Assembly: GCA_021827545.1 (NCBI GenBank)
Contig: JAKAVH010000220.1
Coordinates: 1 to 7,285, forward strand
DNA length: 7,285 nt
Origin: Thermoplasmata archaeon
GTDB lineage: Archaea; Thermoplasmatota; Thermoplasmata; UBA184
Direction: 5' to 3'
This document shows, one piece after another, positions 3,547 through 7,132 of this stretch (position 1 is its first letter; every line of letters begins with the position of its first letter). The notes below the pieces were generated by a model. It ran no database searches. It was given only the letters and a program-made list of their open reading frames with translations, and had not been told where the DNA came from. The position numbers and the translations under genes are program-made.

Positions 3547-6234
3547 ATGGCCGTCCGAAGCCTCTCCTCGCCGGCCGTCCGTCGGTTCTCGGCGACGATC
3601 CTCGGCCACCCGAAGCTCGTTCTCCTGGTCTGGATCGTCGCGTTCGTCGCCCTCGTGCCGATCGCCACGCTCTACCTGCAGTCGATCAACTACTCGACCT
3701 CCTCGGCCGGGATTCCGGGCAGCCAATCCGCGCAGGCGCAGCAGCTGCTCGCCAGTGTTCACCCCGAACTGTCGACATTGATCGTCGCCGCGCCCCCGGG
3801 GTCGAACGCTTCGGCGCTCTGCCAGCGGGAACTCGCCTTCGCGAGCGGGGTCGCGCAGAGCGACTTCTCGTACTACAACTCCACCCAGTCGGTGTGCGGC
3901 GAGTTTGCGACCCTGTTGGATTCGGTCTACGAGCCGCTTCGACCGACGATCGCCGCCAACTACACCGCCTTTCGCGAAACCAGCTTCGCGGTCTACGGTT
4001 TCCCGGCCGCGTTCCTCGCCAATTGGACCCCGGCCGACCGCGCCACCATCAACGGAACCTTCACGAATTCGTCGGGCCAGATGTTTGGCTATGACCTAGC
4101 CTTCCGCGACTGGCTGCTCGCGAATTTCTCGTCGACCGTACCACCGGCGGAGCTCGTGAACCGGGCGGTCGCCTCGACCGCGCCCGCCTACTTCGGTCAA
4201 ACCCCCCTGGAGGCGTTCCGGCTCTCGATCACCCTCCGGGCGTCGAACGTAGTGACGTATCGAACCAATGTAACGCGCGCCACCGCGGCGGGCCTCAACG
4301 CGACGTTCGCGGCGTTCCGGATCCCATTCTCGAGCCAGCTCGTCACGGCGTTCCTCGCCGCCGGGGACGGCGGGACGAATTACGTCCAAGCGTACGGCTG
4401 GAGCTCCGCCCCCACCGCCCTGCGCTCCCAGTTCGTCGCTCCGGACGGGTCGTTAACGCTATTGTTCGTGACGTTCAACGTGACGGACGGCTTCCGCGGA
4501 CCGGACAACTTCTATCCGGCGCAGGCGGCCACGCCGAAGGTCCGTTTGCTCGCCACGACCTTCTTCGGGCCGGCCGCGGGTGTGACGGGAAACGGCGCGA
4601 TCTCCTACGACACCCAAGCCGCCACGTCCGCGGAAGGGTTCCTGTTCGCGCTGACCTTCGTCTTTCTGGCGGGGATGGTAGCCCTCACCCTGCGCTCGTG
4701 GATCGCCCCGCTGCTCACGCTGCTCTTCGTCGTCCTCGGCACGCTGGTCGGCTACTTCGCGATTTGGCTGACCGCGCTATTCCTCGGTCCGGTCAGTTAC
4801 CTCGTCACGTACGTGCAGGAGGCCGTGGTCCTCGGAATCGCGACCGACTTTCTGGTGTTCATCGTCTACCGCTACCGAGAGGAGCTCTTGGCCGGTCGGG
4901 ATCATGCGAGCGCAGTGCGCACGGCGACCGAGACGGCCGGGCCCGCGGTGCTGACGAGCGCCGTGACCGTGGCGGCCGGATTGGGGGCGTTGTACTTTCT
5001 CCCGGGGACCCAGACGTGGGGGCCGGTCCTTTTCCTCAACGTGCTCCTGGTGGGGATCGCGGTCGCGACGCTCCTGCCGGTCCTGCTGCTCGTCCTCGGC
5101 CCGCGGCTCTTCCTCCGTTCCCGTCGAGCGTCGTCGCCCCGGCCGATCGAGCGGTCTCCGTTCTATCGGGCGGCCGATTGGGCCGTCCGGCGCAAGGGCG
5201 TCGTCCTCGCGGTCGTTCTCATCGTCGGGGTCCCGACGATCGTCGGGGCGCTCTCCGCCCCGACCACCTACGACCTCACCCAAGGGTTGCCCGCGTCGTA
5301 CCCGAGCGTCGCGACGCTGAACGCCGCCGTCCAAGCGTTCGGCTCCAACCTCCTCTACCCGACCTACGTCCTGGTCCACAACGGTTCGGGCTATCTGTCG
5401 CCGAACGGCTCGCTTTCCTCCGGGGCGATCGCGTCGCTCCATGCGGTGGCCCAGGCGATCTACGGGACCGCGACCGTGACCCGGGTCGCCGGACCGTTCG
5501 CGCTCGGCACGAACCTGACGAACGCCACGGCGGAAGGGGCGATCGTCTCCGGGGCCACCTCGTTCGTCTTCGCGAACGGCACGTGGGCGTACTGGGTGGT
5601 CTACTCGTCGACCAACCCGTTCACCGACGCCGGGGCGTCGTTTGTCGCGTCGCTGCGGTCGCATCCGGGATGGGTCGTCGGCGGGGCCGCGGCGGCGACG
5701 GTCGACCAACGGGCCCAGAACAGCTACCTCTACCCCGAGTTGGAGCTCCTGATCGTCGTGCTGATCGGGGTCGTCCTCGGCGTGGCGTTCCGGTCGATCA
5801 GCGACCCGCTGATCTCTCTCTCGGGGGTCTTCTTGTCGATCACCGCCACGACCGTGCTGCTCTACGGGATCACGACCTACCTGCTCCACCAGGCGTTGAT
5901 CTACCTCATCCCGGTCATCTTGTTCGTCATCCTCGTTTCGCTCGGCAACGATTACACCGTCTTCATCCTCTCCCGGGTCCGCGAAGAGCGCCAATCGGCC
6001 CCGGCGGAGCTCGCGATCCCTCGGGGAATCGGGCATTCCGGCGCCGTCGTGACGAGCCTGGGGCTGATCCTGGCCGTCTCCCTCGGTTCGCTCGCGCTCC
6101 AGCCGCTCGGCTTCCTCACCCAGCTCGGCATCGCATTCGCGATCTCGCTCGTCCTCGACACGTTCGTCGTCCGGCTATTCTACTTCCCGGCGATGCTCCG
6201 CCTCGCCGCCCGCCCGCGGCGGCACAACCGTTAA
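3547..6234 (+). CDS. MMPL/RND-family membrane transporter
   Basis: This 895-residue protein has the duplicated six-helix layout of the RND superfamily, MMPL branch, proton-driven exporters of lipids or hydrophobic compounds. Hand-placed membrane segments are: TM1 at about 24-44; a large extracytoplasmic domain at about 46-360; TM2-TM6 at about 365-520; a basic cytoplasmic linker (RSRRASSPRP); TM7 at about 551-570; a second extracytoplasmic domain at about 571-730; TM8-TM12 at about 733-885; a basic tail. The TM4 motif GIATDFLVFIVYRYREE carries Asp434 and the TM10 motif LGNDYTVFILSRVREER carries Asp802-Tyr803. These match the paired Asp-Tyr proton-relay sites of MmpL proteins, except that the TM4 partner is Phe435. 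Sixteen N-X-S/T sequons all fall in the two extracytoplasmic domains. The only two cysteines, Cys92 and Cys117, lie in the first one. Cargo is unknown. TAA is at 6232-6234. Confidence 0.92.
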   Translation: MAVRSLSSPAVRRFSATILGHPKLVLLVWIVAFVALVPIATLYLQSINYSTSSAGIPGSQSAQAQQLLASVHPELSTLIVAAPPGSNASALCQRELAFASGVAQSDFSYYNSTQSVCGEFATLLDSVYEPLRPTIAANYTAFRETSFAVYGFPAAFLANWTPADRATINGTFTNSSGQMFGYDLAFRDWLLANFSSTVPPAELVNRAVASTAPAYFGQTPLEAFRLSITLRASNVVTYRTNVTRATAAGLNATFAAFRIPFSSQLVTAFLAAGDGGTNYVQAYGWSSAPTALRSQFVAPDGSLTLLFVTFNVTDGFRGPDNFYPAQAATPKVRLLATTFFGPAAGVTGNGAISYDTQAATSAEGFLFALTFVFLAGMVALTLRSWIAPLLTLLFVVLGTLVGYFAIWLTALFLGPVSYLVTYVQEAVVLGIATDFLVFIVYRYREELLAGRDHASAVRTATETAGPAVLTSAVTVAAGLGALYFLPGTQTWGPVLFLNVLLVGIAVATLLPVLLLVLGPRLFLRSRRASSPRPIERSPFYRAADWAVRRKGVVLAVVLIVGVPTIVGALSAPTTYDLTQGLPASYPSVATLNAAVQAFGSNLLYPTYVLVHNGSGYLSPNGSLSSGAIASLHAVAQAIYGTATVTRVAGPFALGTNLTNATAEGAIVSGATSFVFANGTWAYWVVYSSTNPFTDAGASFVASLRSHPGWVVGGAAAATVDQRAQNSYLYPELELLIVVLIGVVLGVAFRSISDPLISLSGVFLSITATTVLLYGITTYLLHQALIYLIPVILFVILVSLGNDYTVFILSRVREERQSAPAELAIPRGIGHSGAVVTSLGLILAVSLGSLALQPLGFLTQLGIAFAISLVLDTFVVRLFYFPAMLRLAARPRRHNR

Positions 6235-6235
6235 A
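6231..6235 (+). promoter_or_regulatory. TATA-like box for tRNA-Ala
   Basis: TTAAA lies 35 bases upstream of the mature tRNA 5' end and overlaps the MMPL stop codon. Transcription would start about 6-8 bases ahead of the tRNA, a normal distance for an archaeal tRNA gene with a short 5' leader removed by RNase P. Weak consensus, by eye. Confidence 0.45.
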
Positions 6236-6265
6236 GTCGATGGTGCGTCGGTTTCGGCGGGCCGT

Positions 6266-6367
6266 GGGCCGGTAGATCAGCGGAAGATCGCTACCTTGGC
6301 AAGGTAGAGGTCGCGAGTTCAAAGGGACGGCGGGGCCCCCGTCGTCCGGAGAGTCTCGCCCGGTCCA
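6266..6367 (+). tRNA. tRNA-Ala(GGC): tRNA-Ala(GGC) with a 30-nt intron in the T-loop
   Basis: All arms can be drawn. The acceptor 5' strand GGGCCGG is 6266-6272 and pairs with CCGGTCC at 6360-6366. It includes a G3:U70 wobble (6268 with 6364), the hallmark recognised by alanyl-tRNA synthetase. U8 and A9 follow, then a D arm GATC (6275-6278) with GATC (6286-6289) around loop AGCGGAA holding G18 and G19. The anticodon arm is CTACC (6291-6295) with GGTAG (6303-6307) around TTGGCAA, anticodon GGC at 6298-6300. The variable region is AGGTC, giving the G15-C48 Levitt pair. The T stem is GCGAG (6313-6317), but its partner CTCGC lies far off at 6355-6359. Removing 30 nt leaves the seven-base loop TTCAAAT and a 72-nt mature tRNA with A73 at 6367. 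CCA is not encoded. The gene sits between the MMPL and HTH genes, same strand. Confidence 0.9.
6324..6353 (+). other. Predicted tRNA intron (T-loop, between positions 59 and 60)
   Basis: These 30 nt interrupt the T-loop. They fold into a hairpin of about ten pairs, 6325-6334 with 6338-6347 (GGACGGCGGG with CCCGTCGTCC, one G-U), around a three-base loop. A near-complete archaeal bulge-helix-bulge follows. Exon bases TTC 6318-6320 pair with GAG 6349-6351 (one G-U, with an A-G mismatch 6321/6348 as the fourth position). A three-base bulge AAG is at 6322-6324 and a three-base bulge AGT at 6352-6354. Cutting after the second base of each bulge joins the exons to TTCAAAT. The boundaries could slide by one or two bases (6322-6351 or 6323-6352 give TTCAAGT), but the length is 30 in each case. 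The splicing endonuclease would have to accept a relaxed motif. Confidence 0.78.
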
Positions 6368-6454: not shown

Positions 6455-7132
6455 GTGGAAGTCGACCTGCGCGAAAAGATGGCGGGGGAGGTCGTGGTGA
6501 GCCCGCACCCCGGCCGGACGCTGCGCAAGTGGCGCGAGGACTTCGACGTCTCCCAACGCGATCTGGCGCGGGCCCTCGACACGGTGCCGTCGGTCGTGAG
6601 CGACTACGAGAGCGAGCGACGGACGAGCCCCGGCGCCGCCTTCATCCGACGGTACATCGATGCGCTCCTCGCCATCGACCAAGAGCGGGGCCACCGGATC
6701 GGGCAGCGGCTCGGCCAGCACCTCCCGTCGGACGGGATCCTCGGGTTGAAGGAGTTCGCCGTCGCCCTCTCGCTTCGCTCGTTCGCGGACCGGATCGAGG
6801 CGAAGCCGGTGAGCCGGGTCGATCTGCATCGGGACATCCACGGGTTCACGCTGCTCGACGCCCCGCGCGCCATCCTGTCGATCGACGCGACGCGCTACGC
6901 CGAAGTCTTCGGCTGGACGACCCAGCGGGCGCTCGTCTTCGCGAACGTCAAGTACGGCCGCTCCCCGATGGTCGCCGTGCGGGCCCACCCGCTCAAGCCC
7001 GCGGCGGTCGTCTTCGCCCATCCGGGGCGGGTCGACCCGCTCGCCATCCGCCTGAGCGAGGTCGAGCGGATTCCTCTCCTCACGACCCTGCTGGAGGCTC
7101 CGGCGATCCTGGAGCGGCTCGAGCGGGTCTAG
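6455..7132 (+). CDS. HTH (XRE-like) transcriptional regulator upstream of HMG-CoA synthase
   Basis: This is a 225-residue cytoplasmic protein. Residues about 21-72 form a Cro/C1-type helix-turn-helix: LRKWREDFDVSQRDLARAL, then the likely recognition helix TVPSVVSDYESER at about 43-55, then a helix FIRRYIDALLAI. A helical middle section (about 93-125) leads to an alpha/beta C-terminal domain at about 128-212 (GFTLLDAPRAILSID, then VKYGRSPMVAVRAHPLKPAAVVFAH, then DPLAIRLSEVERIPLL). That domain may sense a ligand, but I cannot name one. GTG 6455 is chosen for its leaderless distance from TTTATA. The stop TAG lies 21 bases before the HMG-CoA synthase ATG, so the two are probably co-transcribed. 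An HTH gene directly ahead of HMG-CoA synthase is, to my knowledge, a recurrent archaeal arrangement, suggesting control of mevalonate synthesis. GCCCGGT words near its promoter are candidate binding sites. DNA-binding call is firm; target and effector are inferred. Confidence 0.88.
   Translation: MEVDLREKMAGEVVVSPHPGRTLRKWREDFDVSQRDLARALDTVPSVVSDYESERRTSPGAAFIRRYIDALLAIDQERGHRIGQRLGQHLPSDGILGLKEFAVALSLRSFADRIEAKPVSRVDLHRDIHGFTLLDAPRAILSIDATRYAEVFGWTTQRALVFANVKYGRSPMVAVRAHPLKPAAVVFAHPGRVDPLAIRLSEVERIPLLTTLLEAPAILERLERV

Follow-up and report, generated by a model that had tools for sequence, protein, structure and literature searches.

Introduction

Non-canonical introns in archaeal transfer RNA (tRNA) genes have been tied to splicing endonucleases of the (alpha-beta)2 or epsilon2 type or to an extra loop in the enzyme, and 59/60 is among the positions that they occupy, according to the parts of a review cited here (PMC4090602). 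In Euryarchaeota with alpha4 or alpha2 enzymes, according to the same parts, introns occur at the canonical site only and in less than 10% of the tRNA genes. In the portions of other papers used here, Korarchaeum is given as the only alpha2 archaeon with non-canonical introns (PMC4033280), and three thermophilic euryarchaeal methanogens are listed among the archaea that possess them (PMC3218864). Moreover, the endonuclease EndA of Archaeoglobus can remove one relaxed kind of intron, at 37/38, from full-length pre-tRNA (PMC6379350, in part), so that narrow specificity is not absolute, and one intron model was trained on Crenarchaeota together with Euryarchaeota (PMC8450103, in part), so that some euryarchaeal cases are already known. 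Here we describe a stretch of 7,285 nucleotides (nt) from a Thermoplasmata archaeon (contig JAKAVH010000220.1; the whole stretch is referred to as the window), which holds a tRNA-Ala(GGC) gene with a 30-nt intron inside its T-loop. Introns between T-loop positions 59 and 60 interrupt about a third of the located tRNA genes in this soil archaeon and recur in its relatives, and their removal is predicted.

Results

An interrupted tRNA-Ala(GGC) gene and its conservation

The gene has the acceptor stem GGGCCGG/CCGGTCC with G3:U70 and A73, the T stem GCGAG/CTCGC, and a T-loop that reads TTCAAA^(30 nt)^T (Table 1). Without the intron, the sequence is that of a standard 72-nt tRNA, in which 12 of 12 acceptor and T-stem pairs form and the T-loop reads TTCAAAT. 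A first-pass annotation had proposed this anatomy at 6266-6367, with both stems completed beyond the insert, and had pointed to the host as unusual for a T-loop intron; the anatomy is confirmed, and its placing in a Thermoplasmatota genome holds at the level of sequence. As had been foreseen there, ordinary gene finders miss the gene: it is absent from the calls of ARAGORN on the window, and the Rfam tRNA model, which mistakes T-arm bases for the 3' side of the acceptor, gives it 24.8 bits against a cut-off of 29 bits. An intact second tRNA-Ala(GGC) gene, also raised in the annotation, was not found in the 93.5% complete own genome (82 contigs, 1.42 Mb) by the Rfam tRNA scan, by a whole-tRNA model (R1, with which 150 of 1341 candidates were scored) or by an exon pattern. 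The Ala codons GCC and GCT account for 108 of 261 in five open reading frames (ORFs) of the window.

We analyzed the conservation of this gene by searching, at the DNA level, 61 genomes of the order: the own genome and 60 drawn from a larger group. The gene was matched in 55 of the 58 genomes of the same family, full-length in 54 of them and from base 8 on in the other (G045). All 12 stem pairs, the T at position 60 and the pairing of TTC to intron bases -5 to -3 are kept in 54 of the 55 fetched loci, and the sole exception (L065) is truncated by a contig end; agreement of this extent goes far beyond chance. Mean identity is 0.97 for the mature exons and 0.65 for the introns (the latter value without a computed baseline), and 52 distinct intron sequences occur among 54 family genes. 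The annotation had counted as adverse an insert that varies in relatives and breaks the fold; the insert does vary, yet the stems are unbroken.

The exon pattern matched 66 stretches in named genomes, 65 of them titled Thermoplasmata archaeon and one titled bacterium; this set overlaps that of the 55 family loci. The pattern would equally match an intronless gene. In all 66 contigs an intron of 27-36 nt is followed by the 3' exon, with TTC paired in every case, and 64 of the introns are distinct; this check covered the intron, its pairing with TTC and the 3' exon. The matching titles include UBA184, AcS5-107 and SubAcS15-31, which are among the Lutacidiplasmatales genomes in the part of PMC9287336 used here; the word "intron" is absent from the main text of that paper.

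Introns in other tRNA genes of the genome

The first-pass annotation understated the case, as introns of this kind are genome-wide and order-wide. In the own genome, 13 of the 38 Rfam tRNA hits contain a 59/60 intron and a fourteenth, Leu-TAG, was obtained with model R1, so that 14 of the 39 tRNA genes located there carry one: Ala-GGC, Asn-GTT, Ser-GCT, Ser-GGA, Ser-CGA, Gln-CTG, Asp-GTC, Lys-TTT, His-GTG, Arg-TCG, Glu-CTC, Gly-TCC, Arg-TCT and Leu-TAG. Excision gives back 12 of 12 stem pairs in the 12 other first-found tRNAs with T-loop introns, and likewise in Leu-TAG. Nine of the 14 genes score under the Rfam tRNA cut-off and one is unmatched by Rfam, so the tRNA sets of Lutacidiplasmatales genomes can look incomplete.

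Reading by eye added D-loop inserts in Lys-TTT (L049), Leu-TAG (L047:338-485) and Arg-GCG (L044), and extra bases in the anticodon region of one CAT-anticodon tRNA, of Tyr and of Leu-TAA. Introns of any kind are thus present in 18 of the 39 located genes, and Lys-TTT and Leu-TAG each combine a D-loop and a T-loop intron within one gene. The Lys-TTT pair was also seen in families f2, f3 and f13.

Pairing and covariation at the splice site

The register tested places TTCR (positions 54-57) opposite intron bases -6 to -3, with three-base bulges AA^N and NN^T. The alignment consisted of 35 T arms with their loop centres trimmed. In this register 90.0% of cells are paired; shuffles average 61.1, and no slid register exceeds 61.6. 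Covariation amounts to 0.689, compared with 0.191 in shuffles, and none of 500 shuffles reaches the observed value of either measure. In the intron hairpin, all seven inner pairs tested have changed on both sides and 86.1% of cells are paired. Intron base 2 pairs with -7, as the first inner pair, in 31 of the 35 T arms, and 34 of them form the pair adjoining the 3' bulge, which sets both bulges at three bases by comparison rather than by energy folding. In 37 of 38 cases the bulge bases on the exon side are AA.

Among 131 introns from 16 genomes, all three TTC pairs are possible in 127, and the four-pair central helix in 78. Position 57 follows its partner closely: G57 stands opposite C in 49 of 53 introns and A57 in 1 of 78, for which a Fisher value disregards shared ancestry. 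The 13 Rfam-found genes of the own genome behave in the same way, with C opposite G57 in five of six and opposite A57 in none of seven. The Ala gene itself falls short of the strict four-pair helix, as it has three pairs plus A57.G, and its splice motif would fit a near-strict or relaxed bulge-helix-bulge (BHB) form. The fold of the Ala-GGC precursor has a z of -4.05. An insertion site between positions 59 and 60 is favoured because of the covariation, the slid-register control and T60.

Splicing enzymes

PF01974 matches the own genome twice, both times within one ORF (L040), whose product (P0001, 354 residues) contains two endonuclease repeats. Its predicted model has a mean predicted local distance difference test score (pLDDT) of 87.5, and the nearest folds are 5x89, the fused endonuclease of Methanopyrus, and 2gjw of Archaeoglobus; judged by the model, this splicing endonuclease, EndA, looks like an alpha'2 enzyme. 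The second repeat contains Y292, H300 and K331, which do not vary among 39 homologues and align to the catalytic Tyr, His and Lys of 1a79. A triad of Tyr, His and Lys is named in PMC12397907.

An extra loop of the CSL/ASL type (11-18 residues) beside the active site was not found in EndA by alignment or in the model. At the loop site, the protein is colinear with the narrow-specificity enzymes 1a79 (one residue longer) and 1r0v, and the model has nine residues, 209-217, between helix and strand; the site was placed from the offset of the chimera 3p1y against 1r0v, plus Lys44 of A. pernix. A conserved stretch, PRGGxLxKTPxRxW, lies at residues 109-122 of P0001 in the non-catalytic N-terminal repeat and is largely a gap in the Archaeoglobus EndA; in principle, it could act as the known broad-specificity loops do. 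A gene for RtcB is also present in the own genome. The search for splicing genes was confined to EndA and RtcB.

Distribution, age and spread of the introns

Model R1 also matches intronless tRNAs, which makes it unfit for counting T-loop introns, and a model of the T arm (R2) was built for the count, trained on 35 of 38 introns, three of 13-14 nt being set aside. In a test on 47 loci, true intron T arms scored at least 28.2 bits and everything else at most 18.4, with one true intron missed. R2 recovered 19 of 20 known introns, which were mostly its own training data, the miss being the Asn gene of genome G014. With R2, 59/60 introns were found in all 61 genomes of the order, 5-14 per genome in the 58 of the family and 2-6 in the three others. 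Across the phylum, at least one such intron was found in 61 of 244 genomes of at least 80% completeness, and 14 of those 61 belong to the order. The phylum figures are lower bounds, since stricter filters were used and 26 candidates were scored per genome (12 introns in the own genome against 14), and the hits, weak single ones included, were checked in part: a strict tRNA stem scan is passed by 19 of a sample of 20 loci and failed by one (L189). A chance hit (L139) was dropped before counting, as was a 178-nt artefact in G104 (118 rows became 117), and some tRNAs were left unassigned by the script in the multi-genome intron reading.

The Arg-TCT 59/60 intron occurs in family f8 and, by eye, also in f5, f11 and f13, while the Lys-TTT one occurs in f13 and likewise in f1, f2 and f3; both may be old. 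By comparison, the intron of Ala-GGC seems more recent, because the Ala-GGC gene of f2 is intronless and that of f3 has an insert near the anticodon and an uninterrupted T-loop.

Good support for the copying of introns from one tRNA gene to another, seemingly of recent date, comes from a distant genome, G088, where near-identical introns of 36-42 nt are found in four different tRNAs (L262, L271, L275 and L289) and the best four intron pairs reach 0.81-0.94 against a shuffle maximum of 0.66. Shuffle maxima are also surpassed in genomes G014 (0.92 against 0.79), G104 (1.0 against 0.85) and G211 (0.78 against 0.67), though the introns of G014 and G104 are so short that shared ends alone inflate identity. 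In the window's family the best pairs lie at or barely over the shuffle maximum, and copying there is only possible. For the own genome, the best pair of 0.78 against a maximum of 0.76 was not read as recent copying, because shuffles lose the shared intron ends.

Several further observations concern individual loci. In G014 (family f3), nine of the ten introns read are 13-14 nt long (L299, L308 and L362-L368), which leaves little room beyond the bulges and the central helix. In the same genome, L366 (G014:C19:39800-40140) is a Leu-TAA-like tRNA with, by eye, seemingly three introns, in the D-loop, the anticodon loop and the T-loop; the script's label of Cys-GCA is wrong. Contigs G001:C6, G002:C2, G031:C1 and G036:C16, each from a different genome of the family, carry a second T-loop-intron hit 5-7 kb from Ala-GGC on the opposite strand.

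Genomic context

The gene is flanked by an MMPL transporter gene (3547-6234) on one side and by a helix-turn-helix gene (6455-7132) on the other. In 53 of the 55 family loci with upstream sequence, more than half of the bases at -38..-36 and -34..-29 are A or T, and this box is a putative promoter element. ARAGORN instead called a tRNA-Arg at 1424-1524 on the minus strand; this call lies inside an M20 peptidase ORF, is absent from the Rfam scan of the window and was set aside.

Table 1. Positions of the tRNA-Ala(GGC) gene and its predicted splice motif in the window
Feature	Position	Strand	Basis or remark
tRNA-Ala(GGC) gene, unspliced, 102 nt	6266..6367	+	stems, anticodon GGC; family matches
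5' exon, 58 nt, ending at T-loop position 59	6266..6323	+	
Intron, 30 nt, between T-loop positions 59 and 60	6324..6353	+	
3' exon, 14 nt: T60, 3' sides of T stem and acceptor, A73	6354..6367	+	
T stem 5' side, proposed outer helix of splice motif	6313..6317	+	partner 6355-6359
T54 T55 C56 A57, proposed exon strand of central helix	6318..6321	+	opposite 6348-6351; A57/G6348 mismatch
5' bulge AA^G, predicted 5' splice site after 6323	6322..6324	+	comparative geometry; cut inferred
Intron hairpin, 10 bp and 3-nt loop	6325..6347	+	6325-6334 pair 6338-6347
3' bulge AG^T, predicted 3' splice site after 6353	6352..6354	+	comparative geometry; cut inferred
AT-rich, TATA-like box, 38 to 29 bases upstream	6228..6237	+	overlaps MMPL gene stop codon

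Discussion

Very probably, the tRNA-Ala(GGC) gene in the window is functional, is present once in the assembly and is interrupted at 59/60 by an intron of the EndA type. In the mechanism that we propose, the T stem would serve as the outer helix and the intron hairpin as the inner one, and TTCR of the T-loop would pair with intron bases -6 to -3 between them, which would leave two bulges of three nt each, AA^N and NN^T. In each bulge the alpha'2-like endonuclease would cleave behind the second base; ligation of the exons by RtcB would then give back the TTCAAAT loop. As TTCR is present in nearly every tRNA, an intron with a suitable 3' end would fit almost any of them, which would explain the use of one site in so many tRNAs.

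Several results weigh against this reading. When T arms are folded with ViennaRNA, the three conserved central pairs appear in just 2 of the 66 named Ala-GGC ones and in 44 of 117 taken from 15 further genomes; lone-strand folding thus rarely yields the central helix, and the splicing of the Ala gene is a prediction from sequence. For the window gene, single-strand folding favours a register slipped by two bases (6351-6353 in place of the conserved 6349-6351), at -28.2 against -23.7 kcal/mol. The BHB of the first-pass annotation, whose two 3-nt bulges would place the cuts so as to restore TTCAAAT, stands by comparison and not by energy folding. In the alignment of 35 T arms, neither the number of pairs changed on both sides (matched by 164 of 500 shuffles) nor that of further pair types (matched by 64 of 500) is remarkable, and the position-57 pair is absent in 20. 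Within the window's family A57 stands opposite G in 45 of 52 cases, whereas in the other families sampled it stands opposite U in 25 of 26; the strict four-pair form is usual outside the family, and inside it A57 tRNAs mostly carry A57.G. In addition, introns found with R2 are biased to the pairs of that model, while the Ala exon-search set and the 13 Rfam-found genes are free of that bias. Three family genomes (G054, G048 and G007) gave no Ala-GGC match by DNA search or by the exon pattern with up to three mismatches, an absence unexplained beyond incomplete assembly.

Rejection of the Ala-GGC locus by standard tRNA finders would fit a dead gene broken by a small hairpin insertion, with GCC read by another tRNA. 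This is extremely improbable, given that all stems are kept in nearly all orthologues despite the drifting insert, that the own genome yielded no other Ala-GGC gene, and that 13 other tRNAs of the genome show the same arrangement. The preference of single-strand folding for the slip, and its failure to form the central helix in most Ala genes, would agree with excision by other cuts, in a shifted register or by another nuclease, in which case the 59/60 assignment or the EndA route would be wrong. A register shift would, however, break the loop TTCRAAT, the position-57 covariation and the slid-register control speak for the proposed register, and EndA and RtcB, the two enzymes searched for, are both present; we regard such cuts as very unlikely.

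Archaeal tRNA introns can circularise, and those described here are stable hairpins, as might be expected if they were retained as regulatory or circular RNA and spliced conditionally. The introns of one gene mostly differ, however, which makes a sequence-specific role unlikely; a role based on shape may exist, and retention as a whole is an unlikely account.

That 18 of the 39 tRNA genes located have introns, alongside an apparently loopless alpha'2 enzyme, departs from the rule of the review cited above and suggests that the shape of the motif, not its position or the class of the enzyme, sets the limit of splicing. We also put forward a broader proposal, possible rather than probable: the universal T-loop would be a ready-made half splice site, Thermoplasmatota introns would have spread at one position to crenarchaeal density without an endonuclease loop, and the loopless alpha'2 enzyme of Lutacidiplasmatales would accept A57.G where relatives keep A57-U or G57-C.

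Comparison with known systems

The following likenesses are drawn from the parts of the papers cited. As in Thermoproteales (PMC4090602, PMC3218864), there are BHB introns outside the anticodon loop, several per gene in places, with signs of spread between tRNAs, and position 59/60 is used in some archaea (same sources). Thermoproteales, however, have (alpha-beta)2 endonucleases and many intron positions, whereas in the present soil Thermoplasmatota the introns are mostly at a single T-loop site and the enzyme is alpha'2-like. The T-arm intron of tRNA-Ile(UAU) in Cyanidioschyzon merolae (PMC9602550) is a further parallel, although the host is a red alga and the abstract concerns a single tRNA. 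Within the same phylum, the homodimeric endonuclease of Ferroplasma acidarmanus is said to cut minimal BHB substrates at 30 C, and the start of that abstract holds nothing on T-loop introns (PMC8707768). Among the open-licence papers listed, judged by title and start of abstract, none dealt with T-loop introns in Thermoplasmatota.

As regards the enzyme, the alpha'2 EndA of Archaeoglobus fulgidus and Thermoplasma acidophilum (PMC6379350) resembles ours in its two tandem repeats per chain and in the fold match, but those enzymes are listed as narrow, while the present one faces many T-loop introns, many of them with an A.G mismatch in the central helix. Korarchaeum cryptofilum (PMC4033280) likewise has an alpha2-type endonuclease alongside non-canonical introns. 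The site 59/60 is known elsewhere; the scale, the host and the enzyme are new.
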